Positions 7,297-45,200 of a stretch of DNA of 64,000 nucleotides are shown here, one piece after another (positions within the stretch are counted from its first letter, which is position 1; each line of letters begins with the position of its first letter). This stretch comes from Pseudoxanthomonas indica (GTDB lineage Bacteria > Pseudomonadota > Gammaproteobacteria > Xanthomonadales > Xanthomonadaceae): the NCBI RefSeq assembly GCF_900167565.1, contig NZ_FUZV01000002.1:186001-250000 (forward strand). The letters run 5' to 3'. The notes beneath the pieces were generated by a model. That model ran no database searches and was not told the origin of the DNA. It was given only the letters and a program-made list of their open reading frames with translations. A program made the translations under genes and the position numbers.

Positions 7297-7899
7297 TCAG
7301 AGCAGGCCGCGCTGCCGGGCCAACCGATAGGCCTCGATACGATTGCTCACGCCCAACTTTCCAATCGCTTCGGACAGATAGTTGCGCACTGTCCCTTGCG
7401 ACAAACTCAGCTGTTTGGCGATGTCGGCGGCCGACAATCCTTCGCCGGCCAGGCGCAGGATATGCCGCTCGCGGTCATTCAAGGGATCCGCACTCGACCA
7501 CGCATCCATCGCCAGCTGCGGATCGATCACCTTGCCGCCAGCCTGCACCTTGCGCAGCGCATCGGCCAGTTGCTCGGCCGGTGCGTCCTTGAGCAGATAG
7601 CCGCATACACCCGCTTCCAGCGCACGCCGCAGATAGCCGGCACGCGCGAAGGTGGTGACGATCACCACCCGGATCGGAAGTTCATTACGCTGGATGCGCT
7701 GTGCCAGTTCGATGCCGGTCAGGCCGGGCATCTCGATATCGGTCACCAACAGGTCCGGTTGGCAGCGTTGCAGTTCGCGCCAGGCGCTTTCGCCATCGCC
7801 TACCGCCGAGACCACCTCGATGTCCGCTTCCAGGTTCAACAGGGCCGCCAGCGCGCTGCGCAGCATGGCCTGGTCCTCGGCCAGCAGCACGCGGATCAT
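7297..7899 (-). CDS. LuxR/NarL-family response regulator (DesR-like)
   Basis: 200 residues from the ATG at 7899. The receiver domain (1-120) has the acidic pocket LLAEDQ and the phospho-acceptor Asp in LLVTDIEMPG. The C-terminal LuxR-type HTH contains LSAADIAKQLSLSQGTVRNYLSEAI. Its start overlaps the kinase stop by ATGA, so the pair is translationally coupled. It most likely controls the ABC exporter genes of the same operon in response to the upstream kinase, as in DesK-DesR and similar ABC-linked systems. Confidence 0.9.
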   Translation of the reverse strand: MIRVLLAEDQAMLRSALAALLNLEADIEVVSAVGDGESAWRELQRCQPDLLVTDIEMPGLTGIELAQRIQRNELPIRVVIVTTFARAGYLRRALEAGVCGYLLKDAPAEQLADALRKVQAGGKVIDPQLAMDAWSSADPLNDRERHILRLAGEGLSAADIAKQLSLSQGTVRNYLSEAIGKLGVSNRIEAYRLARQRGLL

Positions 7900-9107
7900 G
7901 CGCGTGCTCCCGCCCCGGAACCCGCACGCAGGGCGCCGTCTTCGGCCGTCGACGCCACCGCCGCTGCCGAAACGCCCGGCCACGGCACCACCGCTTCCAG
8001 ACGCATGCCACGGAACGGTTGCGCATCCACGCGCAGGCTGCCGCCGATCGCCTCCAGCCGCTCACGCATGCCGCTCAAGCCATTGCCCGGCACAATCGCC
8101 CCGCCGCGGCCGTTGTCCTGGATCACCAGTCGCAGCTGGCCATCTTCCTGCTGCAGGCGGATATCGGCGGTGGTCGCACGCGCATGCCGCTGCAGATTGG
8201 TGATGGCTTCGCGCAGGGTCAGCGCCAGCACGGATTCGAGCTCGGGTGACAACGCAGGCAGATCGGGCGGGCAGGTCATGGCAACGCCGTCGGATTCCAG
8301 CAGCAGGCGCGCCGACGCCAGTTCCGCCGCCAACCCGGCCGCGCGGATGCCGGTGACCGCACTGCGCACCTGCGCCAGCGCATCGCGGGCGACCCGGCTG
8401 ACATCGTCTATCTCGCGCCGCGCGGCAGCGGGATCGCGGTCAATCAAGCGCCCGGCCAGATCGGACTTCAGTGCGACCAGTGACAGTGTGTGGCCGAGCA
8501 GGTCATGCAGATCGCGGCCGATGCGCTCGCGCTCGGCTACCGCCGCCAGCCGGCGCACTTCCTCATGGCTGAGCATCAACGCGGCATCGGCGCGGGCCTT
8601 GCGGGCGAAACTGATGTTCATCAGTCCCACCGCCAGGCTGACCATGACCGTGCTGAGCAGGTAGATCACCGGCCAGCCAATCAGCTGCCACTCGATTGAA
8701 AAGATCGCCAGCAAACCCAGCATCCAGGCAATCACCCGCTTGGGCGGGCCGCAGAACGCCAGGAACGCGCAGGAATAGATCAGATAGCTCTGCCCACCCG
8801 GATTGAACGGCACCAGCAGATAGCCCAGCAGCGCGATGCCCAGCGCGTTGGCCAGCAACCAGCGCCGGTCGCAGTAGTAGGCGGCGTAGAACATGCCCAG
8901 GAACAGCGCATAGCTGGCCAGCGTCGGCCATAGCCAGTGCGGGAAGAACTGCGGCTCGTACAACGGCGTGATGAAAATCCACACCGACCACACCAGCATC
9001 AACAACGGGAAGTAGCGATTGGCGATTCCACGCCGATGCACGCTGCGGCGTTCGTGCACGCGCGAGAGCGAGTTTTCGGCGGAAGGGGGGAACAGCCAGA
9101 ACACCAT
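7896..9107 (-). CDS. Sensor histidine kinase, HisKA_3 type (DesK-like)
   Basis: 403 residues from the ATG at 9107, chosen because GGAGA stands at Shine-Dalgarno distance. An alternative ATG at 9125 overlaps the permease stop by ATGA and adds six residues. The N-terminal half holds about five or six membrane helices and little periplasmic sequence, which suggests sensing within the membrane. The phospho-acceptor motif is ERERIGRDLHDLLGHTLS. The HATPase domain follows with QDNGRGGAIVPGNGLSGM. Its partner is the response regulator encoded downstream. Confidence 0.9.
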   Translation of the reverse strand: MVFWLFPPSAENSLSRVHERRSVHRRGIANRYFPLLMLVWSVWIFITPLYEPQFFPHWLWPTLASYALFLGMFYAAYYCDRRWLLANALGIALLGYLLVPFNPGGQSYLIYSCAFLAFCGPPKRVIAWMLGLLAIFSIEWQLIGWPVIYLLSTVMVSLAVGLMNISFARKARADAALMLSHEEVRRLAAVAERERIGRDLHDLLGHTLSLVALKSDLAGRLIDRDPAAARREIDDVSRVARDALAQVRSAVTGIRAAGLAAELASARLLLESDGVAMTCPPDLPALSPELESVLALTLREAITNLQRHARATTADIRLQQEDGQLRLVIQDNGRGGAIVPGNGLSGMRERLEAIGGSLRVDAQPFRGMRLEAVVPWPGVSAAAVASTAEDGALRAGSGAGARA

Positions 9108-9121
9108 GCTTCTCCGTTCAA

Positions 9122-9936
9122 TCATGAGCGCCGGGCCAGGCGCCGTGCGGCCAGTACCGCAAAGATCAGCGTGACCCCCGTCAGCACGGCGACATGCACG
9201 GTCACCGCTTGGCCCGCATCCTTGCCGACCACCCGCAACGCAAGCTGGGCCAGATGATACGACGGCCAGATCGGCGCGGCGCGCGCCAGCGCATCCGGCA
9301 ACAGGCTCAGCGGCAGCCACAGCCCGGACAGGAAAGCCATCGGCAGGTAGACCAGGTTGACCACCGCCGGCGCGCCCTGACCACCGATCAGATTGCCCAG
9401 CCACAGCCCCAGCGCGGAGAACGGCAACACGCCCAGCACGTTGATCAGCCACAGCAGCGCCCATTGCCCGGCGGACAGCTGCACGCCCGCGGCGGTGAAC
9501 GCGATCATCGCCAGCAGCAGGCTGATGATCGCGCTGAAGATCATCGCCATCGCCATCTTTGCCAGCAGATAGGCGCCGGGCGGCATCGGCAGGGCGCGCT
9601 TCCAGGTCAGCAGGCCGCGCTCGCGATCCAGCGCCACGCTCACGCCAAAGCCGAACAAGGACACGCCCATCACCCCGAACACGCCGTAGGTGGCCAGCAG
9701 GTACTGCGATGCACCGGCATGACCGCGCGATCCCATCAGCACGCCGAACAAGAGATAGAACAGCGCCGGGAACAGCAGCGTCGGCACGGAGAACGAAGGC
9801 GAGCGCAGCAGGCGCAGGAATTCGTAGCGCGCTTCCAGCACGTAGGCGCGTACAGGCGACCAGGCGATGCGGCGGTCGGCGCGGGGGCTGTTGTTGCGGG
9901 TGCCATGACCGGGCAGGTTGTCGGCGTGCGTATCCA

Positions 9937-10863: not shown

Positions 10864-11104
10864 TGCCGCCGCTCCAACGGGGGATGTGGCGGCAAGACTA
10901 GGACGCAGGCGCGGAGGCCGGCAGTGGCGATTCACATGGAATGCGGATGACAGCTGTCACTTGGCCCCGGCGCCCATTCGCGGCATCCTGTGTCCCTATC
11001 GTGGCGCCGCCTTCGCCCCGCGCCCCTCATGAAGTGACTTCCGGCAACTGGGCTGGGTACGCTCGGCCGGTCACACTTTTCGTCATTCTCCGTCTGGATA
11101 CGGT

Positions 11105-12355
11105 ATGAACAGTTCTGCTGACCTGCTGAAGGAACTCCGCATCGATCGCAAAGCCCCGCCCTCGCAGCCGCCCTCGCGGCGCGGGTTGTGGATCGGGCTG
11201 GGCGTGGTGGTGCTGCTGGTCATCCTGGCCATCGCCGGCTGGGCGTTGTTCGGCCGCGACAAGGGCATCGAAGTGACCACCGCGCCGGTAGCCGCCATCA
11301 GCAGCGGCAGCGCGTCGGCGTCGGTGCTGGACGCCACCGGCTATGTGGTGGCGCGGCGCATGGCCACGGTCTCGTCCAAGGTCACTGGCAAGGTCCAGGA
11401 AGTGCTGATCGAAGAAGGCATGCGGGTGGAAGCCAACCAGGTGCTGGCGCGGCTGGAGCCGATTGACGCCGACGCCGAGCGCGCGCTGGCCGAGAGCCTG
11501 TTGCAGGCCGCACGCAGCAACGCCACCGGCGTGGCCGCGCAGTTGAAGGAAGGCGAGGCCAATGTGCGCCGCCTCAACCAACTGGTGAACACCCAGCTGG
11601 TCTCGCGCGCCGCCTACGACCAGGCCATCGCCGAGCGCGACGCCCTGCGCGCACAGGCCATCTCCGCCCAGCGCAACGAACGCGCCGCCGCCGACCGCCT
11701 GCGCATCGCCGTGATTGGCCAGGACAATACCGTGGTGCGCGCACCGTTCTCCGGCGTGGTGATCGCCAAGGCCGCACAGCCCGGCGAAATCGTCTCGCCG
11801 CTGTCGGCCGGCGGTGGCTTCACCCGAACCGGCATCGGCACCATCGTCGACATGGACTCGCTGGAAGTGGAAGTGGACGTGGGCGAGTCCTACATCGGCC
11901 GCGTGCAGCCCAAGATGCCGGTGGAAGCCACCTTGAACGCCTACCCGGACTGGAAGATCCCGGCCGAGGTGATCGCCATCATCCCCACTGCCGATCGCGG
12001 CAAGGCCACGGTCAAGGTGCGCATTGCGCTGAAGGTGAAGGATCCGCGCATCGTGCCGGACATGGGCGTGCGGGTGAGCTTCCTGGAAGCCGCGCGCCCG
12101 GCCGAGCAGAGCCAGCCGCAGGGCGTGCGTGCACCGGGCGCCTCGGTGGTCGAGCGTGCTGGCCAGCAGGTGGCCTTTGCATTGACGCCGGAGAACACCG
12201 TCGAGCAGCGCACGCTCAAGGTCGGCCGCGCGCTGGGTGATGATCGCCAGGTGCTGTCTGGCCTGAGCGCCGGCGACACCGTCGTGCTGAACCCGCCGGA
12301 TGAACTGAAGGACGGCAGCAAGGTCCGCCTGGCCGAGGAAGGCAAGGAAGAGTAG
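11105..12355 (+). CDS. Periplasmic adaptor (membrane fusion protein, MacA/HlyD-like) of ABC efflux system
   Basis: 416 residues. A cytoplasmic N-terminus is followed by one membrane helix (about 29-50), then biotinyl-lipoyl-like halves and a coiled-coil hairpin (about 115-200, rich in Ala, Glu, Arg) and beta-barrel domains. This is the adaptor layout of MacA-type and RND-type pumps. The next three genes encode a LolD/MacB-type ATPase and two permeases, so it belongs to a tripartite ABC exporter. No outer-membrane channel gene is nearby, so a TolC encoded elsewhere is presumably used. Confidence 0.9.
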   Translation: MNSSADLLKELRIDRKAPPSQPPSRRGLWIGLGVVVLLVILAIAGWALFGRDKGIEVTTAPVAAISSGSASASVLDATGYVVARRMATVSSKVTGKVQEVLIEEGMRVEANQVLARLEPIDADAERALAESLLQAARSNATGVAAQLKEGEANVRRLNQLVNTQLVSRAAYDQAIAERDALRAQAISAQRNERAAADRLRIAVIGQDNTVVRAPFSGVVIAKAAQPGEIVSPLSAGGGFTRTGIGTIVDMDSLEVEVDVGESYIGRVQPKMPVEATLNAYPDWKIPAEVIAIIPTADRGKATVKVRIALKVKDPRIVPDMGVRVSFLEAARPAEQSQPQGVRAPGASVVERAGQQVAFALTPENTVEQRTLKVGRALGDDRQVLSGLSAGDTVVLNPPDELKDGSKVRLAEEGKEE

Positions 12356-12529
12356 AAAACCTGCGCAGTCCAGGCGCGTTGTCGCGCCTGCTGCGACCGG
12401 CGCCACGCAGGCTGCGCGGCGTCGTCACCGGAGCGCAGCGCGATCCGGGCAACATCGCACCATTGCAAGGCCGCGTGGCCCGTTGAAGTTCTGGGCCTCG
12501 TCCATCGAACTCCATAGAAGGAAACCACG

Positions 12530-13222
<693 letters not shown>

Positions 13223-14403: not shown

Positions 14404-15714
14404 ATGCCCAAGTGGATTGCAAACATTCTCTCCGTACTCGCGCTGATCGTCGGCCTGATCCTGTGGATTGCCGCGCCGTGGTGGGCGCTGCTGGGCGTCG
14501 CGGTGCTGCTGGCGCTATGGCTGGTGTTCACCCGCACCGGCCGGCTGTCGCTGGCGGCTGCCGGCATCGGTATCGCCAGCCTGCCGCAGCGTTGGGGCGC
14601 CTCCTCGGTGATCGTGGTCGGCATTGCCGGCGTGGTCGCGGTGCTGGTGGCCATGCTGGCGATGGGCGAGGGCTTCAAGGCCACGCTGGATCGCACCGGC
14701 GATGAAAACACCGCCATCGTGTTGCGCGGTGGTTCGCAGGCCGAGACCAACTCCGTGCTCACGCGTGATCAGGCGCCGCTGCTCACCAGCCTGCCTGGCA
14801 TCGCCAAGGGACCGAGCGGCAAGCCGCTGTTGTCGGCCGAGCTCTCGCAGATCGTCAACCTGCCCAGCATGGAAGACGGCACCGACGCCAACGCGCAGTT
14901 CCGCGGCGTGGGCGAGGATGCCTGGTTGGTGCGCGGCGACAAGATCAAGCTGGTCGAAGGGCGCAAGTTCGCTCCCGGCCTGCGCGAGATCGTGGTCGGC
15001 ACCGGCGCAGCGGGCCAGTTCCGTGGCCTCAAGGTCGGCAACAAGATCAACCTGGGCAACCAGGAATGGACCGTGGTGGGGCGCTTCGCATCCGGCGATT
15101 CGCATGACTCCGAAATCTGGGGCGATGCCGAAACCCTGGGCTCCACCTACAACCGCCGCGCCTACCAGTCGATCACCGTGCGCACCGAAGGCAAGGCGGG
15201 CTTCGATCAGTTCAAGGCGGCGGTGGACGCGGATCCGCGCCTGAAGCTGGACGTGGAAACCACCAAGGCCTACTACGCAAAGCAGTCCGGCCAGTTGTCC
15301 AAGGTGCTCAACGTGATCGGCAAGATCATCGGCGTGATCATGGCCTTCGGCGCGGTGTTCGGTGCGCTCAACACCATGTATGCGGCCGTCGCCGGACGCG
15401 CCCGCGAAATCGCCACCATGCGCGCGATTGGCTTCCGCGGCCTGCCGGTGGTGATGGCGGTGATGCTGGAGACCATGCTGCTGGCGCTGGTCGGTGGCCT
15501 GCTCGGTGGCTTGCTGGCCTGGGCGGTGTTCAATGGCTACAGCGTGTCCACGCTGGGCAACAACTTCAGCCAGGTGGTGTTCCAGTTCAAGGTCTCGCCG
15601 GAACTGCTGTGGAATGGGCTCAAGTGGGCGCTGGCGATTGGTTTGATTGGCGGCTTGTTCCCGGCGTTGCGGGCGGCCAGGTTGCCGATTACGACGGCGC
15701 TCAGGGCGCTGTGA
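14404..15714 (+). CDS. ABC transporter permease (MacB/FtsX type), second copy
   Basis: 436 residues from the ATG at 14404, 10 bases after the first permease, with GAGGAG upstream. It differs from its partner in having extra hydrophobic segments at the N-terminus (about 5-55) before the helix that leads into the periplasmic domain. The C-terminal three-helix FtsX domain ends in GGLFPALRAARLPITTALRAL. It is the last gene of the efflux operon and is followed directly by a strong terminator. Confidence 0.9.
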   Translation: MPKWIANILSVLALIVGLILWIAAPWWALLGVAVLLALWLVFTRTGRLSLAAAGIGIASLPQRWGASSVIVVGIAGVVAVLVAMLAMGEGFKATLDRTGDENTAIVLRGGSQAETNSVLTRDQAPLLTSLPGIAKGPSGKPLLSAELSQIVNLPSMEDGTDANAQFRGVGEDAWLVRGDKIKLVEGRKFAPGLREIVVGTGAAGQFRGLKVGNKINLGNQEWTVVGRFASGDSHDSEIWGDAETLGSTYNRRAYQSITVRTEGKAGFDQFKAAVDADPRLKLDVETTKAYYAKQSGQLSKVLNVIGKIIGVIMAFGAVFGALNTMYAAVAGRAREIATMRAIGFRGLPVVMAVMLETMLLALVGGLLGGLLAWAVFNGYSVSTLGNNFSQVVFQFKVSPELLWNGLKWALAIGLIGGLFPALRAARLPITTALRAL

Positions 15715-15727
15715 GGCAAGCACCCAC

Positions 15728-15755
15728 AAAAACCCCGGCCAGGCCGGGGTTTTTG
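15728..15755 (+). terminator. Rho-independent terminator of the efflux operon
   Basis: A GC-rich inverted repeat (ACCCCGGCC / GGCCGGGGT with a two-base loop) is preceded by A residues and followed by TTTTT. It lies 13 bases after the second permease stop codon. The A/T symmetry would allow some function on the other strand too. Confidence 0.92.
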
Positions 15756-15905
15756 TTCGCGTCATCGGGTGGCTGGGGTGCCGTAGCGAGTGGGCTGCCA
15801 GTGGGGATATCAGGTAATGCCGGTGCGTGGCCTGCGATACTTCTGATGGCTGTGCAGGGAAATTCCTCTATGCGTATCCGGCATTCGGTCATGGGGTGGG
15901 GAATC

Positions 15906-16292
15906 ATGAGAGTGGTCCGAACGTTTGTGCTGCTGTTGGTCATAGGCTCCGCGCAAGCAGAGGAGCAGCCCAGCTGCACCCCCCTTGAGCAATGGCAGGA
16001 AGTACCGGCCGGCATCCGCGAGGATCTGGAAACCCTCATTGGCCCGATTGCGGAAGAAGGTGCGCGCTTCAATGCCACCGATGTCGTCAGCGGCGACCTC
16101 GCTTCAAACCGATTCCTGACCGCCTGCCGATCCAGTGATCTCGTTGCAGTTGCTTTGGAACGAGGCGGACGGGGCTATCACATCGAGGTGTTCCAGTTCC
16201 GCGAGGGGCAACTCGCGACCCGCTGGACGCAGCTGTTGGACCAGGACGGGAAGGCCGAGATCAATCTCTTGCAAGCGCCGGATGCACGCTAG
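15906..16292 (+). CDS. Small secreted protein, unknown function
   Basis: 128 residues from the ATG at 15906, chosen because the signal peptide MRVVRTFVLLLVIGSAQA begins there and a G-rich ribosome site precedes it. In-frame ATGs at 15870 and 15891 are possible. The mature part is acidic and about 110 residues long, with two Cys (near CTPLEQ and TACRSS) that could form a disulfide. I recognise no family. It stands alone between the efflux operon terminator and a convergent transporter gene. Confidence 0.65.
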   Translation: MRVVRTFVLLLVIGSAQAEEQPSCTPLEQWQEVPAGIREDLETLIGPIAEEGARFNATDVVSGDLASNRFLTACRSSDLVAVALERGGRGYHIEVFQFREGQLATRWTQLLDQDGKAEINLLQAPDAR

Positions 16293-16385
16293 TTGGAGCC
16301 TGCAGCCGAGCCACGCAGGGGCAAGCCGCTCAGCACACGCAGGTAAGCGGGATCGCGGCTGACCGGCCGCGAGCCCGTCGATTAT

Positions 16386-17237
16386 TCAGCGGCCCGCACG
16401 CCGCCGAGCGGCCATGACGAACGGAATGCCCACGACTACGTTGAGCAGCACGTAGATCAACACGGCCAGCGCCGCCAGCTTGGCCTCGGGCAGACTGGAT
16501 CCAATCACGCCGATGGCCACGCCGGGATGCCGCGTCGCCGAAGCCAGCGCCAAGGCGGTGCGCGTACTCCTCGTGGGGCCGCCCAGCAGATAGCCGGCGG
16601 CCAGCGCCGCCACGATCACCAGCAGCATCACCAGCAAGGTGCCGCCGCCGATCAAACGCCACAGCGCGGGGGCGAGCATCGCCACGGCCAGCACCGATCC
16701 CACCACCAGCAGCACGAATCCGGCCTTGGCGATCAGGTAAGCGACGCGGTCGGCGCGGGGGCCCAGCGCCTTCTGCGCAATCAAACCCAGCAGCATGGGG
16801 CCGGCAACCGTGATGGCCAGCGTCTTGGCGATGGGCGCGGTCGGTACCTGCAGGTTGTGGCCGAACAGGGACGTCAGCAGCGGCAACCCGAGCGGCATCA
16901 GCAGCAGCGACGCGAGCGCGGCGAATACCAGCAAGCCCAGGATGTAGGCGCCGTCGCCGCCCGACTTCAGTTGCTTCTTGGGCAGCAGCGGCGGGACCGG
17001 AGCCAGCGACAACACCAGCAAAGCCAGCGCCACGCCAGGGCGTGGGTCGACCAGCAGGATGGCCAGCGAGGCGATCACCGGCACGACGACGTACAGCGAG
17101 ATGGCGGCGCGCAATGCAACCGCCGGGCGACTCAGCAGGTACAGCATCTGCTCCGCGCTCGCTCGCATGGCCAGCGCCATGGCACTGAGGACCACACTGA
17201 TGACAATCACCAGCTTGACGATCAGGAAGAAGGACAT
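16386..17237 (-). CDS. Putative Na+-dependent transporter (bile acid:sodium symporter-like)
   Basis: 283 residues from the ATG at 17237, which has GGAGGAACC just upstream; the open frame extends far beyond it without homology. About nine or ten hydrophobic helices run through the protein in the style of the BASS/SBF superfamily (ASATRHPGVAIGVIGSSLPEAKLAAL near the C-terminus resembles the crossover-helix region). The substrate is unknown. It is divergent from the GTPase island. Confidence 0.75.
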   Translation of the reverse strand: MSFFLIVKLVIVISVVLSAMALAMRASAEQMLYLLSRPAVALRAAISLYVVVPVIASLAILLVDPRPGVALALLVLSLAPVPPLLPKKQLKSGGDGAYILGLLVFAALASLLLMPLGLPLLTSLFGHNLQVPTAPIAKTLAITVAGPMLLGLIAQKALGPRADRVAYLIAKAGFVLLVVGSVLAVAMLAPALWRLIGGGTLLVMLLVIVAALAAGYLLGGPTRSTRTALALASATRHPGVAIGVIGSSLPEAKLAALAVLIYVLLNVVVGIPFVMAARRRAGR

Positions 17238-17603
17238 GGTTCCTCCGGGGCAGGTGCTGCGACAGGGCCCGTATAGTAGGCGCTGATCAGGTCGCATATG
17301 CACGTCCCCGGTGCAGTGGACGGCAGGGGCAAAGTCGGTACCCGCTGCCCCGGGTTTCTGCTGGCCGTCATCAAGTTGCATCCGACCCAGCCACGCCACC
17401 GTCTTTCTGATGGGCCGAGCGGGCAGGTGTCGACTTGTGAGCAAGACAAAGCGGCCCTAAAATCGAGTCGTTCCAGGGGATAAGCCACCATCCGGTGCGG
17501 TGTGGCCTGATTGAACTGCCGCGTCGCGAGACGTAAGAACGTAGTCAACACGATACCGTTGAGTGGCGGCGCATAAACCGTCTCACCCGATGAGAGCCAT
17601 TGA
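17238..17603. other. Gene-free stretch upstream of the GTPase module
   Basis: 366 bases between two divergent genes. The left part holds the promoter region of the SBF-like transporter and a possible hairpin (GGGGCA...TGCCCC near 17325-17350). The right part holds the candidate promoter listed separately. Short open frames here show no ribosome site or recognisable protein. Confidence 0.5.
17435..17463 (+). promoter_or_regulatory. Candidate sigma-70 promoter of the GTPase module
   Basis: TTGTGA (17435-17440) and TAAAAT (17458-17463) are separated by exactly 17 bases. They lie 140 bases before the GTPase start codon, leaving a leader of roughly 130 bases. This was found by eye and has not been tested. 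Confidence 0.5.
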
Positions 17604-18281
17604 ATGCCTTTGCCCTTTATTCCGATAGTGATTGGTGTTGTAACCCTTCTTGCAGGGACCGCCATCACGGTGAAGTGGGATGCCATCATGGTGGCGCTGC
17701 GAGGCAAAAGGCTCGCTGTCCTGGGTGCACGCGGCGTGGGCAAAACGCACCTGGTGAAGTTTCTGGCCACCGGCTCCATCCCTGCGGAGTACAAACAAAC
17801 GGTCGCCCCTGAGAAGTCCGCGTCCCGCCGCTTTCAGCTGCACGATCTGGACCTGAAGGTAAAGAGCTCACTCGACGTGTCGGGCGACAAGGCGGCGTAC
17901 GGAGAATGGAAGCAGCTCCATGACCAGGCGGACGTCATCTTCTATCTACTACGGGCAGACCGGCTCATTGCAGGCGATCATAAGGTCGAGAGCCGAGTCA
18001 GGGATGACCTGAAGCACATCGGTGGATGGCTGCAAACCAGCGTCTCACGTCCCCGCTTCTTCATCATCGGTACCCACTGCGACCTGGATGCGAACTTTGT
18101 CCGCACTCCAGCCGACAACTTCGGAGACTACGTCGATAGATTCCGGGCGCTACCCATCGTGACGGAACTGGTCTCGCGTGGTGGCGGTGCGCAGCAGGTG
18201 AATGTGGTTCTTGGGAGCATGAAGTCGCACCAGGACACGGAAGCGCTGGTCTACCAGATCTTTCGGCAGGTGGTCTCATGA
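17604..18281 (+). CDS. Membrane-anchored small GTPase (Ras/Arf-like), function unknown
   Basis: 225 residues. One N-terminal membrane helix (about 5-23) is followed by a compact G domain: P-loop GARGVGKT (41-48), a Thr in the switch I region (about 66), DVSG as the G3 motif (91-94), THCD in place of NKxD (157-160) and a G5-like GSMKS (204-208). The size and order fit a Ras/Arf-like TRAFAC GTPase. Its stop overlaps the next start by ATGA. Base composition is visibly less GC-rich than in the housekeeping genes, which suggests acquisition. Single-domain anchored GTPases of this sort occur in bacterial conflict systems, but I cannot assign a described one. Confidence 0.75.
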   Translation: MPLPFIPIVIGVVTLLAGTAITVKWDAIMVALRGKRLAVLGARGVGKTHLVKFLATGSIPAEYKQTVAPEKSASRRFQLHDLDLKVKSSLDVSGDKAAYGEWKQLHDQADVIFYLLRADRLIAGDHKVESRVRDDLKHIGGWLQTSVSRPRFFIIGTHCDLDANFVRTPADNFGDYVDRFRALPIVTELVSRGGGAQQVNVVLGSMKSHQDTEALVYQIFRQVVS

Positions 18282-18781
18282 CAGACCAGTTCATCCTCTG
18301 GGCCCAAGCCTTGGATAACTCGTCTCCTGACCACTTCACCGTGCATGGCAACGACCTGGGGAACAGCGACACGGTGCAACGCCAGGAAGCCGTTTCCAAG
18401 GTCTCGGCCGTCATAAAAAAAGGAGCGCGCCTGTTCGAGCGGGACGGTGTGATGTTGACCGCCGACGCGTCCCACTTTGTCATCGAGATTCCCTCGGTTC
18501 AGAGCGATCTCGCTGGCCGGATTGCGCCCATCGTCTGCTACGGGCCGAATGGCGTGGTGGCCACTGGTGGGCATGGAATCATGGCGGTCGCTGCCCTCAC
18601 CGCCTTTGCAAGGCGGATTGGCCGGACCCTGCAACCCGAGCAGTTGAAATTGGTCGACGTGTCGTTCGATGCATTAAAAAAAAAATCGAAGGTGGGAAGA
18701 ATGGTACGCACGGCCGGGTTGAGCGGCCTGGCTCTCGCGCTTCTGGTGCTCGTCTACTGGTTACGGCAAAGGGGCTGGTAG
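18278..18781 (+). CDS. C-terminally anchored membrane protein, partner of the small GTPase
   Basis: 167 residues. The first 140 are soluble and mixed in charge; a single hydrophobic helix (about 146-163) at the extreme C-terminus makes it a tail-anchored protein. It overlaps the GTPase gene by four bases (ATGA), so the two products are probably made in a fixed ratio and meet at the membrane. A glycine-rich turn (GPNGVVATGGHGIM, 89-102) sits before a helical region. I recognise no family; an effector or regulator of the GTPase is a guess from context. Confidence 0.6.
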   Translation: MTDQFILWAQALDNSSPDHFTVHGNDLGNSDTVQRQEAVSKVSAVIKKGARLFERDGVMLTADASHFVIEIPSVQSDLAGRIAPIVCYGPNGVVATGGHGIMAVAALTAFARRIGRTLQPEQLKLVDVSFDALKKKSKVGRMVRTAGLSGLALALLVLVYWLRQRGW

Positions 18782-18825
18782 CGAGGACGAAAGCGAGTCT
18801 GAAAGTGGCCGAACCCGAGGTCGAA

Positions 18826-19641
18826 ATGACGGCTCCGGTTCTCAACGAACATGCATCGAAAGGCATTCGAGCAATGGCGACAGGTTCTTTTCCCGAAAAC
18901 CCCGGAAGTCGGAAGGCAATTCTGATCCTTCAACAGCACGACTTGGAGAAGTGTGCGTACGAACCCGGAGCCGCTCAGTCATTGTTCGATGAAGAGGCGT
19001 ATGTACTGGAATACCCGCTTCGTCCACAGGGCGGGGTATCGACGGCGCTCGAAAACATTGTCGATGCAAACCTTGCACGCCCCGGCACGGTGCTGGTTCA
19101 AAGCCCCTTTGATTCCAACACTTACGAGGAAGCTTCGCTTGCACCCCAGCGCTTCGCACTGGCCAAGCACATGTACTTCTCCACGCTTTGCATGCATCTG
19201 GGCGCGAAAGAGGTCACTGTCGAGCAGATTGATCTCCGCACCAGCAGCGGCAAGACCTCGGTTGATGTGAAGGGCGAGCGCTTGGGCGGGAGCGCCCAAG
19301 CGACTGTTGATGCGGAGAACCTCGAAACCTTCCGAGCGCAGATGAACCTGCATGACGTATTCACCGGTGGACCGGCAGATATCGTCGCAGCCGATCGCCT
19401 TCTGCGTCGAACCGGATTGTTGAACGATCCGAACATGCGCACGTTGATCGAGATGCGACGGGATGGCGCCAACCAACTGAAGTCCCGAAAGCTGGTATTG
19501 AACCTGTCCAGCGAAGCGAAGAGCAATTTGAACGTCGTGGGGCGACTGAAGGTGCCAAACTTCGTGAAACTCTCCGTCGAGTTCGACCGGGTCATCAAGG
19601 AGCAACACGAGTACACGCTGACCGTTTTCGTGAAGTTCTGA
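18826..19641 (+). CDS. Soluble protein of unknown function, third gene of the GTPase module
   Basis: 271 residues from the ATG at 18826, chosen because GAGG stands five bases before it; a GTG at 18805 would add seven residues. There is no signal peptide or membrane helix. The sequence looks like an alpha/beta fold with an extended C-terminal beta part (LKVPNFVKLSVEFDRVI...YTLTVFVKF). I cannot recognise a catalytic motif. It follows the tail-anchored protein gene by 44 bases on the same strand and shares its lower GC content, so it is likely part of the same unit. Confidence 0.6.
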   Translation: MTAPVLNEHASKGIRAMATGSFPENPGSRKAILILQQHDLEKCAYEPGAAQSLFDEEAYVLEYPLRPQGGVSTALENIVDANLARPGTVLVQSPFDSNTYEEASLAPQRFALAKHMYFSTLCMHLGAKEVTVEQIDLRTSSGKTSVDVKGERLGGSAQATVDAENLETFRAQMNLHDVFTGGPADIVAADRLLRRTGLLNDPNMRTLIEMRRDGANQLKSRKLVLNLSSEAKSNLNVVGRLKVPNFVKLSVEFDRVIKEQHEYTLTVFVKF

Positions 19642-19828: not shown

Positions 19829-21532
19829 ATGGCCAGAGCGGAAGCAACGGTGGAAGAACTTGTCAGCATGATCGAACGCGGGCGCCTGAGACTACCGGAG
19901 ATGCAGCGGCGGTATGTCTGGCGATCTCCACGTGTCCGCGACCTGATGGATTCCCTGTACCGCGGCTACCCTTCCGGCGCGATCCTGCTTTGGGAGACTG
20001 CCGAAGACGTACCTCTGCAAGACTTCGCTATCGCTCAGCAGTCCAATCCCTATCAGACAACGCAGCTGCTGCTTGATGGCCAGCAGCGCCTTACCTCGCT
20101 CTCGGCTGTCGTCAGAGGCGAGCCGGTGACAGTACGAGGGCGAAAGCGCCCAATTGAGCTGCTGTTCAATCTGGAGCATCCTGACCACCTCGCGTTCGTA
20201 ACCGAAGTCAACGAAGACGCGGATGTTGACGAGGAAGGAGGGGAGACCGACGCGGATGACGTGGATTCCAGCGCGGATGAACTGATGGAGCGTTTCAACA
20301 AGATGGCCTTTGTCGTATCGACGCGCAAGCTGGAGCAGCATCCGCATTGGGTGAAAGTCTCCGATGTGTTCCGGACCAGTAGCGACAGGGAGTTCCTGCG
20401 AAAGGCCGGTGTCGCTGACTTCGACGATCCGCGAGTTGAGAAATACAGCAAGCGACTCGCCAGACTGCGGGACATACGGAAGTATGTGTATCGCATGGAT
20501 GTTCTGGAAAGTTCGATGGGATACGACGAAGTCACCGAGATATTCGTTCGTGTCAACTCGCTGGGAGCCAAGTTGCGAAGTTCCGATCTTGCGCTTGCCC
20601 AGATAACCGCCAAGTGGAGAAATTCACTGAGTGAATTCCAAGCCTTCCAGAAGTCCTGCGCACAGCTTGGATTCGACCTCGACCTGGGCATTCATCTGAA
20701 GAATATGGTGGCGTTTGCCACAGGCCAGTCCCGGTTCTTGACGGTTGGCAGCCTGGATGTCGAGACACTCAAGTCGGCATGGAAGGAATCGCGCAGAGGG
20801 ATGGAGTTCGCATTGAACTTCATGCGAAGCAATGTGGGCATAACAAGCCCCGCACTTCTTTCATCGCCGTTTATCCTGATTGCAATTGCCTATTTCGGAC
20901 ATAGGCGCGACTACGTACTCAAGCCAGAAGAATCGTCCAAACTGCGCTACTGGATACTGGCAGCGAACGCCAAGGGTCGATTCTCGCGTGGTTCCAGCGA
21001 ATCCATCCTCGATCAGGATCTGGCCTCACTGCGACAAGGCGGCGGTACACAGGAGATGATTGATCGCCTTCGGCTGCAGTTTGGTCGCCTGGACATTACC
21101 GCGGAAGAGCTTGAGGGGCGCAATCAGCGCAGCGCCTTGTTCAAGACGATGTTCCTTGCATTTCATGCTGGCGGGGCGACCGATTGGCGTTCGAATCTGC
21201 GCATCTCCCTCGATCACAAGGGGAGCCAGGACCGGCTGCAGTTCCACCATATCTTTCCCAAGGCGGTGCTCAGGGCAGCGGGACGCAGTCTGCGCGAGGC
21301 AGACGATATCTCCAATCTGTCATTCATATCTGGTAAGACTAACAGACAGATAAGCGACAAGGCCCCGTCGACGTACATACACAAGTACAGTAGTGGCACT
21401 GGCGGCGCAGCCTTTGTCGCCCAGTGCATTCCCACTGAGGACACGCTATTGAGCGTGGATGCTTACCTGGAATTTCTGCAGGAACGGCGCGCTCGGATCG
21501 CGTCCAAGCTCAACGAGTTCCTCGAGAGCTGA
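19829..21532 (+). CDS. Fused GmrSD-type endonuclease (DUF262 plus DUF1524/HNH)
   Basis: 567 residues. The start is the ATG at 19829, six bases after AAGGAG; an ATG at 19823 and a TTG at 19799 are also in frame. The N-terminal DUF262 domain shows the ParB-like DGQQR motif (83-87) and the preceding YPSGAILLWE. The C-terminal DUF1524 domain has the HNH-like HHIFP (473-477) and the typical NLSFISGKTNRQISDKAP. This is the layout of type IV, modification-dependent restriction enzymes (GmrSD, BrxU) that attack modified phage DNA, with both subunits in one chain. An acidic linker (about 130-160) is specific to this protein. It is encoded downstream of the GTPase module. Confidence 0.85.
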   Translation: MARAEATVEELVSMIERGRLRLPEMQRRYVWRSPRVRDLMDSLYRGYPSGAILLWETAEDVPLQDFAIAQQSNPYQTTQLLLDGQQRLTSLSAVVRGEPVTVRGRKRPIELLFNLEHPDHLAFVTEVNEDADVDEEGGETDADDVDSSADELMERFNKMAFVVSTRKLEQHPHWVKVSDVFRTSSDREFLRKAGVADFDDPRVEKYSKRLARLRDIRKYVYRMDVLESSMGYDEVTEIFVRVNSLGAKLRSSDLALAQITAKWRNSLSEFQAFQKSCAQLGFDLDLGIHLKNMVAFATGQSRFLTVGSLDVETLKSAWKESRRGMEFALNFMRSNVGITSPALLSSPFILIAIAYFGHRRDYVLKPEESSKLRYWILAANAKGRFSRGSSESILDQDLASLRQGGGTQEMIDRLRLQFGRLDITAEELEGRNQRSALFKTMFLAFHAGGATDWRSNLRISLDHKGSQDRLQFHHIFPKAVLRAAGRSLREADDISNLSFISGKTNRQISDKAPSTYIHKYSSGTGGAAFVAQCIPTEDTLLSVDAYLEFLQERRARIASKLNEFLES

Positions 21533-21952: not shown

Positions 21953-22444
21953 ATGAACCGTATGCTCTTTGCTGCCGTCGCTTTGGGTGGATTGCTGATG
22001 TCGGCGCGAGCGTTTGGACATGACGGGCCGGCGGCTACCCACGCTCCTGGTCGCGCTGACGACCCGCTGCCCGCCGAACTGGACCGCGTCCTCCGCGACT
22101 ACGAGCGCGCATGGCGTGCCGGAGATGCTGCGGCGCTCGCCTCGCTCTTCGCGGAAGACGGATTCGTGCTGCAAAGCAACCAACCACCCGTCCGCGGGCG
22201 GGCCGCGATCCAGGCCGCGTACGAGGAGCAGGGCGGCGCACCGTTGCGTCTGCGCGCACTGGCCTACGCCGTCGATGACACCACCGGCTACATCATCGGC
22301 GCCTACGGCTACGGCGATGCCCCCGGCGACATGGGCAAGTTCACGCTCACGCTGAGGCGTGCCCCGGGAGGCCAGTGGCTGATCTTCTCGGACATGGACA
22401 ACATGAACGCACTACCGAAGCCCCCGCGGAAAGACGCGCCCTAG
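21953..22444 (+). CDS. Secreted NTF2-like (SnoaL/DUF4440-type) protein
   Basis: 163 residues. A Sec signal (MNRMLFAAVALGGLLMSARAFG) leads into an NTF2-like fold: LRDYERAWRAGDAAALASLFAEDGFVLQSNQPPVRGRAAI is the typical start of DUF4440/SgcJ-like domains, and the last strand contains GGQWLIFSDMDN. Such cone-shaped domains bind small ligands or act as enzymes or structural modules. No catalytic set can be assigned here. It is convergent with the next gene, nine bases apart. Confidence 0.8.
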   Translation: MNRMLFAAVALGGLLMSARAFGHDGPAATHAPGRADDPLPAELDRVLRDYERAWRAGDAAALASLFAEDGFVLQSNQPPVRGRAAIQAAYEEQGGAPLRLRALAYAVDDTTGYIIGAYGYGDAPGDMGKFTLTLRRAPGGQWLIFSDMDNMNALPKPPRKDAP

Positions 22445-40177: not shown

Positions 40178-40633
40178 ATGACGCACACACTCTCCCCACC
40201 GGCAGACCAGACCCCAACACTCGAAGATGCCCTTCGCGCCTTCGAGTTCCTCGACCTCAAGGCCCAACCGCCGACAAGCAAAACCGCCCGCGCGCCCCTG
40301 CTGCCCGGGCGCGTTATTCGAGTGCTGGCAAACAAGCTCGCAATTCACGAGCGAAACGTGCTGGCCTTGCTGAAAATTCCGGAGCAGGCCTTCCAACGCA
40401 GGCAAGCGGCCCATGGGTCTCTGACCGAAGTCGAATCCGGACGCGTCCTGCGCATTGCACGCATCGCCGGCTTGGCCCGACACGTCTTCGAGAGTGATGC
40501 CAAAGCCACGCGCTGGTTGTCCAGCCGGCATCTGATCCTGGGTGGACGGCCCATCGATATGCTCGTTTCGGATGCTGGCGCCAGAGAGGTGGAAGATGAA
40601 CTCTGGCGAATCGAGTGGTGCGACTTCGCCTGA
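40178..40633 (+). CDS. Xre/ParS-family antitoxin (DUF2384, toxin-binding)
   Basis: 151 residues. The N-terminal part (about 45-75) is a degenerate Xre helix-turn-helix. The C-terminal half is the MbcA/ParS toxin-binding domain, with GRVLRIARIAGLARHVFES...WLSSRHLILGGRPIDMLVSDAGAREVEDELWRIEW. It neutralises the RES toxin encoded next and normally represses its own promoter. The stop overlaps the toxin start by one base (TGATG), giving coupled synthesis with the antitoxin first. Confidence 0.92.
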   Translation: MTHTLSPPADQTPTLEDALRAFEFLDLKAQPPTSKTARAPLLPGRVIRVLANKLAIHERNVLALLKIPEQAFQRRQAAHGSLTEVESGRVLRIARIAGLARHVFESDAKATRWLSSRHLILGGRPIDMLVSDAGAREVEDELWRIEWCDFA

Positions 40634-41091
40634 TGCGCGTGTACCGCATCAGCAAGTCCAGGTACATCGAACAAGCATTGTCAGGCATCGGAGCAGCCCG
40701 CAAACCGGGCCGGTGGAACTCGTGTGACAGACGGGTCGCCTACACGTCCAGCTCTGTTGCTCTGGCGATGCTCGAGTCGTTGGCCCACATGGACGAGGAA
40801 AACATGCCGAACGGCTGCATGCTGCTGGGATTCGACGTTCCCGATGCCGCCATCACCACGCTACCGGAGGTGGCGTATCCACCCGGCTGGAACAGGCTTC
40901 CGTACTCCGCCACCGTGCAGCGGGTCGGCGACAACTGGCTCAGGACCTCAGGCTCCCTGGCGCTTCGAGTACCCAGCGCCATCGCGCGCTATGAGTTCAA
41001 CTTGTTGATCAATCCCCTCCACGCCAGATTCGCCGAGATAAGGCGCGTCTCGCTGGACCCGTTCTCGCTGGATACCCGACTTCAAAAATAG
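40633..41091 (+). CDS. RES-domain toxin (NAD+-degrading, ParT-like)
   Basis: 152 residues from the ATG at 40633. RES signature pieces are visible: the N-terminal VYRISKSRY with its Arg, GRWNSCDRRVAYTSSSVALAMLESLAHM with the conserved Tyr and Glu, and LRVPSAIARYEFNLLINPLHARF with the Ser near the end. RES toxins have an ADP-ribosyltransferase-like fold and deplete NAD+ or modify a host enzyme, stopping growth. The preceding gene encodes the matching antitoxin. All key residues appear to be intact. Confidence 0.92.
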   Translation: MRVYRISKSRYIEQALSGIGAARKPGRWNSCDRRVAYTSSSVALAMLESLAHMDEENMPNGCMLLGFDVPDAAITTLPEVAYPPGWNRLPYSATVQRVGDNWLRTSGSLALRVPSAIARYEFNLLINPLHARFAEIRRVSLDPFSLDTRLQK

Positions 41092-43229: not shown

Positions 43230-45200
43230 ATGCCCCACGAATCGGCCACTCCCGCTGCCGCAGGCCAGCGCGTATTCGCCACCCAGTGCGATCTGATCAT
43301 GAAGGGCGGCATCACCAGCGGCATCGTCTATCCGCTGGCGGTGGCGGAAATCGCCAAGGCCTTCGAGCTGCGCTGCATCGGTGGGACCAGCGCGGGCGCG
43401 ATTGCCGCGGCGGCGGCGGCAGCAGCGGAACTGGGGCGGCAGCGCTACAGGAACGGCAAGCTCGCTGAGGATCCGCAGGGCTTCCGGAAACTGGAAACCT
43501 TGCCCGCGCAACTGGCGGGCAAGCCGGCGGACGGGCAGGGCACGCTGTTGAAGGCGTTCTTCAAGCCCGTGCCCACGCTGCGGCCGTTGTTCGATGTGTT
43601 CCTGTCGATGCTGGGCGACAAGAGTCGCGGCGCGCGTGTGGTCTCGGTGGTCTGGGCCCTGCTGCGTCACTTCGGCTTCTGGATCGTGTTGGGCGCGCTG
43701 ATCGGCGGCGCGCCGCTGGCATGGCTGGCCGGGCGGCAGCTGGTGTTCTGGCCATGGGTGCTGGCCGGCGCACTGGCGGGGGCGGTACTGGTGGTGATCG
43801 CCAATATCGTGCGCCTGCTGTTCCGCGAACTGCCGGCCAATCGCTTCGGCGCCTGCTCGGGCATGGCCGCTCCGGACGATCCCGCGCCCGATGAGGCGCT
43901 CACTCCCTGGCTGACGCAGTACTTCGACGACCTGTGCGGACAGGCGCAACGTTGGCGCGAGGACAATGACGCCATCCAGCGCGCCAAGCCGCTCACCTTC
44001 GGCGACTTGAACGAGGGCGACATCGACCTGCAGGTGATGACCACCTGCCTGACCCTGGGTCGCCCTTTCCGCATGCCGTTCCGCGACGACGACAAGGTGC
44101 GCGAGAACAAGCAGTTCTACTACCGCGATGCCGATTTCGAAGCGCTGTTCCCGCCGCGGATCACCGAATGGATGAAGGCGCGCGAGCGGCCGGCGTCGGA
44201 TGAAGACCGCAGCGACATCGACCTGACCGGCTTCCGTCGCCTGCCCGCACCCGAAGACCTGCCGGTGGTGGTGGCGGTGCGCATGAGCCTGAGCTTTCCG
44301 CTGCTGCTCAGCGCCATCCCGCTGTACTCGGTGGATTACCTCAAGCCCAAGGCCGAGCGCAGGCTGGAGCGGTTGTGGTTTACCGATGGCGGGGTGGGTT
44401 CCAACTTCCCCATCCACTTTTTCGACAGCGCGTTGCCGTCGCGGCCGACGTTTGGCCTCAACCTCGGGCAGATCGACAGCGAGGACGCGCGCGATCCCGC
44501 GCACGGCCGCAACCAGCGCGTGGTGTTTCCCGCCACCAACGACAAGGCGCGGCTGCATCCGTGGCGGCGGTTTCCCGCTACGGGCGTGGCCGGGGTGATG
44601 GGGTTCCTGGGCGCGGTGGTGCATGTGGCCAAGGACTGGAACCACGACACCTTGTCGCATCTGGCCGGCTTTCGTGATCGCATCGGTTTGATCCGCCTGA
44701 CGAAGCAAGAGGGTGGCCTGAACCTGACGATGGAAGACGCGCTGATCACCAAACTCACCGACTACGGGCGCGAGGCGGGCCGGGTGTTCGTGGAGCGTTT
44801 TGGCGATCCCGTGCATTGGACCACCGCCACCGAGCCGTCGAAGATGGGCTGGGGCAACCACCAGATCATCCGCCTGCGCCTGCTGCTGTCGAGCACGGCC
44901 GAGCTGCTGGAGTCACTGGAGAAGTCATGCAGCCGACTCGATGGCACGGACGCCGAGTACGCGCGCTTCTTTGACCCCGAAACTGGCAAGGGCAGCTATG
45001 CCTTCCACGGCTTGGGCGAGCTGGGCACCGACGAACAAGGCTTGTACCTGACGCAGGCCGGGCTCGCGCAGGAATCGCTGCGTCGCCTGCGTGAGTTGTC
45101 GAAGCTGATCATGGCCAGCAACGCGGCGCGCCCGGCCACGCAGTTGGATGTGGGCGCACCCAAGCCGACTCCGGAGTTGAAGTTGCGGCCGAGGATCTGA
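43230..45200 (+). CDS. Patatin-like phospholipase with internal membrane segment
   Basis: 656 residues. The patatin oxyanion loop is in MKGGITSGIVYP (24-35), the nucleophile Ser54 is in GTSAGA (52-57), and the catalytic Asp is in FTDGGVGSNFP. Between them lies a large insertion with two membrane helices (about 150-200), so the enzyme is probably fixed to the inner membrane and acts on phospholipids there. The C-terminal part after about residue 500 has no recognised domain. It is transcribed away from the DUF2235 hydrolase gene. Confidence 0.87.
   Translation: MPHESATPAAAGQRVFATQCDLIMKGGITSGIVYPLAVAEIAKAFELRCIGGTSAGAIAAAAAAAAELGRQRYRNGKLAEDPQGFRKLETLPAQLAGKPADGQGTLLKAFFKPVPTLRPLFDVFLSMLGDKSRGARVVSVVWALLRHFGFWIVLGALIGGAPLAWLAGRQLVFWPWVLAGALAGAVLVVIANIVRLLFRELPANRFGACSGMAAPDDPAPDEALTPWLTQYFDDLCGQAQRWREDNDAIQRAKPLTFGDLNEGDIDLQVMTTCLTLGRPFRMPFRDDDKVRENKQFYYRDADFEALFPPRITEWMKARERPASDEDRSDIDLTGFRRLPAPEDLPVVVAVRMSLSFPLLLSAIPLYSVDYLKPKAERRLERLWFTDGGVGSNFPIHFFDSALPSRPTFGLNLGQIDSEDARDPAHGRNQRVVFPATNDKARLHPWRRFPATGVAGVMGFLGAVVHVAKDWNHDTLSHLAGFRDRIGLIRLTKQEGGLNLTMEDALITKLTDYGREAGRVFVERFGDPVHWTTATEPSKMGWGNHQIIRLRLLLSSTAELLESLEKSCSRLDGTDAEYARFFDPETGKGSYAFHGLGELGTDEQGLYLTQAGLAQESLRRLRELSKLIMASNAARPATQLDVGAPKPTPELKLRPRI

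Follow-up and report, generated by a model that had tools for sequence, protein, structure and literature searches.

Membrane traffic in eukaryotes depends centrally on small GTPases that pair with longin or roadblock domains, and the well-studied bacterial pair is MglA/MglB. As excerpts of PMC4686813 describe it, SRbeta is a GTPase related to ARF and Sar1 that carries a single N-terminal membrane helix and is paired with the longin-fold SRX domain of SR-alpha; according to parts of PMC9481161, longin and roadblock proteins act as guanine nucleotide exchange factors or GTPase-activating proteins in several complexes. Here we analyse a 64,000-nucleotide stretch of the Pseudoxanthomonas indica genome, called the window below (G000:C2:186001-250000; host genome 3.96 Mb), in which an earlier note had pointed out three adjacent genes for a membrane-anchored small GTPase, a tail-anchored protein and a soluble protein. 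We tentatively read these genes as a horizontally transferred GTP switch of three components that sits at the cytoplasmic side of the cell membrane and most likely serves as a conflict (anti-invader) module. A GTPase switch with obligate partners is of a known kind, but we could not match the composition of the module to any described system, and no description of it was found in the open-licence literature searched.

The module resembles SRbeta-SRX in combining an N-terminally anchored GTPase with a partner that is weakly predicted to be longin-like. It differs in having a partner with a tail anchor of its own and without an NG GTPase domain, and in being bacterial, apparently mobile and composed of three genes. 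With MglA/MglB it shares a bacterial small GTPase encoded next to a small protein, here a putative regulator. Protein 1 aligned with MglA over 117 columns at 24% identity (probability 6.9%). When 46 gene-2 sequences were compared with 7 MglB proteins by hhalign, the probability was 0.3%, so that a roadblock match at the sequence level is absent; to our knowledge MglA and MglB also have no membrane helices, unlike proteins 1 and 2. The Rup family, as set out in part of PMC4316618, offers another small GTPase in a conserved operon, which there also encodes a coiled-coil protein and a membrane protein that is uncharacterised. The Group 1 operons in that partial account also contain a signal-output gene and a protein often ending in an OmpA-type peptidoglycan-binding domain, neither of which is seen in the module. 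DO-GTPase/GAP1 systems, in the passages of PMC7159879 devoted to them, have a GTPase switch, an obligate partner and often a membrane location; in contrast, the partners in the module are small and constant, and a variable effector was not found.

The three genes form a conserved unit

The three open reading frames (ORFs) and the overlap between the first two are present as the earlier note described them:

17604..18281, + strand: gene 1, 225 aa, Ras/Arf-like small GTPase whose N-terminal region has a membrane helix at about residues 5-23 (ORF call, Pfam, alignment, hydropathy)
18278..18781, + strand: gene 2, tail-anchored protein, 167 aa (ORF call, alignment, structure prediction, hydropathy)
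18874..19641, + strand: gene 3, soluble protein with a conserved core of 255 aa and no recognised fold (ORF call, homologue lengths)

Genes 1 and 2 overlap by ATGA at 18278-18281. Gene 3 has in-frame starts at 18805 (278 aa), 18826 (271 aa) and 18874 (255 aa). Homologue searches found 285 proteins for gene 1, 76 for gene 2 (own protein included) and 190 for gene 3; the results below refer to the best 120 of 285, all 76 and the best 120 of 190, respectively. A length of 255 aa is found in 60 of the 120 listed gene 3 homologues and fits the ATG at 18874, while the closest homologue among the matches listed has 271 aa, the length first proposed, which is thus one of three candidates.

The order 1-2-3 is kept at four loci: the window, L002/L039 from a Kofleriaceae metagenome-assembled genome (MAG; gene 1 76% identical to that of the window), L038 (33, 22 and 31% identity for genes 1, 2 and 3) and L047 (24, 21 and 27%). 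The possibility raised at the outset that the genes would routinely be found apart is therefore not borne out at the few loci reached, where four arrangements in order stand against one decayed, solitary gene 3. Taking equal length of the homologues' longest contigs as a proxy for the same contig, genes 1 and 3 have 45 of 119 distinct contig sizes in common (jitter control, 1.4), genes 1 and 2 have 32 (jitter control, 1.1), genes 2 and 3 have 30, and 20 sizes are common to all three. For gene 2, 33 of 75 sizes are without a match in the listed genes 1 or 3, one of these being the window's own contig. Distance matrices of co-located genes are correlated for genes 1 and 3 (rho 0.48, 43 pairs; maximum of 1000 shuffles, 0.42), genes 1 and 2 (rho 0.60, 30 pairs; maximum, 0.42) and genes 2 and 3 (rho 0.56, 29 pairs; maximum, 0.38), the shuffles in each case ignoring shared ancestry. 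In addition, the metagenomic protein P0169 is a fusion of gene 2 (51% identity over 136 aa) and gene 3 (70% over 255 aa) with no clear membrane helix between the two parts, an assembly error being a possible alternative source.

Protein 1 is a predicted membrane-held small GTPase

Protein 1 carries the G motifs that had been noted: a P-loop (G41-T48), D91-V-S-G94, T157-H-C-D160 and G204-S-M-K207. The presence of G1, G3, G4 and G5 motifs in one domain places it among the Ras/Arf-like (TRAFAC) GTPases, and all 34 sequences of the alignment share G41, G46, K47, G94, T157, C159 and D160. Matches to Ras (E 0.0018) and Roc (E 0.0031) both fall below the Pfam cut-off, and a protein 1 profile reaches Ras-like PDB chains at E 0.002-0.006. 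By hydropathy, the N-terminal membrane helix is found in 111 of the 120 listed homologues, as expected from the earlier note. The mean net charge in these 111 proteins is +0.1 before the helix and +1.7 after it, a bias that, by the positive-inside rule, predicts a cytosolic G domain.

In Ras, a glutamine occupies the position that follows the DxxG motif. Protein 1 has D95-K96 and no Ras-like glutamine there, raising the possibility that a partner completes the GTPase active site.

Protein 2 is tail-anchored and protein 3 is soluble

Protein 2 is predicted to consist of an alpha/beta domain (residues ∼1-117), a long helix and a C-terminal membrane helix (residues ∼142-160). Hydropathy finds this C-terminal helix in 73 of the 76 family members (own protein counted), in agreement with the anchor initially seen. 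Mean net charge in the 73 members is +4.5 before the helix and +0.9 after it; judged from this bias, the alpha/beta domain is also predicted to be cytosolic. A hallmark sequence, W8-x-Q10-x-L12-D13-N14-x-x-x-D18, is invariant across 18 aligned sequences, including the L007 copy at 22% identity; the L047 protein has QALDN and the D and lacks W8.

A structure search with Foldseek gave 50 listed rows for protein 2, 30 of which are LOV, profilin, longin/TRAPP-type or roadblock folds; 11 of these 30 are longin-type or roadblock, and MglB chains account for 7 of the 50, every one weak. The predicted order of elements, beta-beta-alpha-beta-beta-beta-(beta)-alpha-alpha, resembles that of longin, which is beta2-alpha-beta3-alpha2. 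The cytosolic domain is thus weakly predicted, from modelled structure, to be PAS/longin/roadblock-like in shape. Together, 44 gene-2 homologues match 30 families at E ≤ 1, and Robl_LC7 is absent from the 25 of these that are shown.

The solubility of protein 3 stood up, as none of its 120 listed homologues has a membrane helix by hydropathy, and no fold was recognised for it. Membership of a housekeeping family would have spoken against a dedicated system, but Pfam searches with proteins 2 and 3 and their homologues gave no such family beyond chance, and the family of either gene is in none of the libraries searched. None of the three proteins can be assigned by model match to an anti-phage system of PADLOC-DB: four models align to protein 1, each at no better than E 0.015-0.06 and on or around its P-loop, and genes 2 and 3 match no model at E ≤ 1. 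Two of the three components are thus without a family in these libraries, and one of them is without a recognised fold.

Distribution is patchy and points to horizontal transfer

Gene 3 was not found beyond its own genome in samples of the class (369 genomes), the phylum (398) and the family (395). For gene 1, a sample of 100 relatives held two further matches, weak and partial, with genes 2 and 3 not beside them. Other named carriers in the protein database include Pseudoxanthomonas mexicana, Achromobacter, Duganella, Janthinobacterium, Alcaligenes and Cupriavidus, which makes the module sparse and not unique. Around the Kofleriaceae MAG, gene 3 occurs in 2 of 282 genomes of its phylum; the class of G499 gave 1 carrier in 57 genomes and that of G466 gave 3 in 317; these samples overlap and yield four distinct genomes altogether, three of which have a GTPase match, all with genes 1-2-3 in order.

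Gene 1 is 67-76% identical among named homologues from Kofleriaceae, Desulfuromonadaceae, Achromobacter, Duganella, Aeromonas and Pseudoxanthomonas, which, judging from their names, we take to represent several phyla. Such identity across phyla, together with the patchiness, points to spread of the module by horizontal transfer. At L039, large serine recombinases lie on either side of the module. Genes 1 and 3 had no match in 72,556 plasmid records. The G+C content (1-kb windows) is 0.55-0.58 across 17.5-22.0 kb of the window compared with 0.61-0.69 elsewhere between 10 and 30 kb, which bears out the lower value reported before.

No notable flanking direct repeat was found for the island in the window. 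Comparison of 14 flank genes, one of them uninformative (wrong frame), with four same-genus regions chosen by a match to the SnoaL-like gene revealed no empty integration site; the SnoaL-like gene is present in all four regions, two genes further out are present in one, and the other flank genes in none. A piece of 31 bases within the SnoaL-like gene (22279-22309) recurs at 93-97% identity in seven genomes of the genus; three of these have it on a different contig from the gene's main match.

A proposed mechanism and its alternatives

In the mechanism that we favour, the cytosolic domain of protein 2 would dock on the GTPase, with the invariant QALDN loop as a candidate contact. Protein 2 may serve as a regulatory platform that controls the nucleotide state of protein 1, the part that longin and roadblock proteins play for Rab/Rag/MglA-type GTPases, and may contribute to its active site. 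The closest parallels are SRbeta-SRX and, among bacteria, MglA-MglB. Protein 3 would be a sensor or an output whose recruitment to the membrane pair, or release from it, depends on the GTP state; the fusion in P0169 fits contact between proteins 2 and 3. The idea of a membrane-sited GTP switch with two partners put forward in the earlier note is thereby sustained, while the defence or conflict role that it suggested is plausible but unproven and is the least certain step of our explanation. Defence is favoured over other signalling because of the patchiness and because restriction or defence genes lie near two of the four module loci (the window and L038; a small sample with no matched control).

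Several observations weigh against this reading. The module proteins evolve slowly, which counts against a strong defence claim; at L039 and L047, two of the four loci, no defence gene is present among the genes tested; and G1280 has a frame-broken, truncated gene 3 alone (L048 143-811, on a 3.7-kb contig) without a GTPase match, which is either a decayed orphan or an assembly artefact.

Should the partner fold be confirmed, this mobile operon would be an independent bacterial case of a GTPase with a longin/roadblock-class partner, and should the module defend against phage, it would constitute a new GTP-switch immune system.

Rather unlikely, though the best of the rivals, is a mobile membrane-signalling accessory without a defence role, in which a soluble output protein would receive information on the state of the envelope from the GTPase and its tail-anchored partner, in a manner similar to Rup or conservon operons. 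Group 2 MglA (conservon) and Group 1 Rup GTPases do lie in conserved operons with membrane-linked signalling or uncharacterised membrane proteins, as part of PMC4316618 reports, and both the 67-76% identity of gene 1, unusual for arms-race genes, and the two loci whose tested genes include no defence gene would suit such an accessory; the very patchy distribution (its own genome being the sole carrier among 395 of the family) and the restriction-gene neighbours near the other two loci would not. A narrower form of the immune reading is more doubtful still: an undescribed bacterial module whose membrane GTPase and tail-anchored longin-type partner (SRbeta-SRX or R-SNARE-like) would relay infection at the membrane to a soluble protein of new fold.

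It is improbable that the genes form an addiction-like stabilisation module serving a mobile element and not the host. The paired recombinases at L039 and the low-GC island in the window are compatible with it, but Pfam searches of the three proteins and their homologues show no toxin-like domain, the 72,556 plasmid records lack a match to genes 1 and 3, and we know of no toxin-antitoxin pair that resembles three slowly evolving components with two membrane anchors. Even less probable is that the module is an outlier within the described GTPase-centric conflict systems (DO-GTPase with GAP1). Pfam holds models of both families, and the Pfam matches shown, which cover the three proteins and their homologues, include neither. 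Proteins 2 and 3 also differ from a three-domain GAP1 with variable effectors in being small and constant, although a TRAFAC GTPase with an obligate partner, membrane helices being present in part of these systems, is what excerpts of PMC7159879 describe. Finally, that three unrelated genes are chance neighbours in one shared island can hardly be sustained: the degenerate gene 3 of G1280 and the unmatched gene-2 contig sizes would allow it, but it is contradicted by a gene order kept down to 21-33% identity at four loci, as well as by the shared contigs, the correlated distances and the 2-3 fusion.

Neighbouring genes and further features

Two further features adjoin the module in the window:

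19829..21532, + strand: GmrSD-type fused type IV restriction gene (GmrSD_N E 6.9e-28; PADLOC HEC-05 E 1.1e-50)
17435..17463, + strand: sigma-70-like hexamers TTGTGA-17-TAAAAT, a chance-level match

The restriction gene, correctly anticipated as a fused GmrSD-type nuclease, starts 187 bp downstream of gene 3 and, with a small ORF, makes up the 3' end of the low-GC island; its GmrSD_C match (E 0.069) is below the Pfam cut-off. It probably belongs to the same acquired island as genes 1-3; it is a neighbour of the module and at most a candidate member. The promoter proposed at 17435 finds no support: it has 9 of 12 matches, and 0.8 such sites are expected in shuffles over the 2661 bases scanned.

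Upstream of the L038 module are a DrmD-like helicase (E 1.7e-81) and a type IIG restriction enzyme (E 8e-271), with one small gene before the GTPase. A weakly PglW-like protein of 1268 aa (14903-18709), with matches to DUF7226, the RNA polymerase alpha C-terminal domain and sigma-70 region 4, is encoded 3.9 kb downstream. The L047 neighbours include radical SAM and aldo-keto reductase genes. Neither the three neighbour genes tested at L039 nor the four at L047 had a match in PADLOC.

A search for a fourth conserved gene gave no candidate: in blastp at E ≤ 1, the genes that follow gene 3 at L038 did not match those at L047. Directly 3' of the diverged module, L038 encodes a 564-aa protein (11088-12782) without a Pfam or PADLOC match, and L047 has a 662-aa ORF (7575-9563) with an HD-domain match just below the cut-off. 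Elsewhere in the window are an Xre/MbcA/ParS-type antitoxin and RES-domain toxin pair (40178-41091) and a gene for a patatin-like phospholipase (43230-45200).
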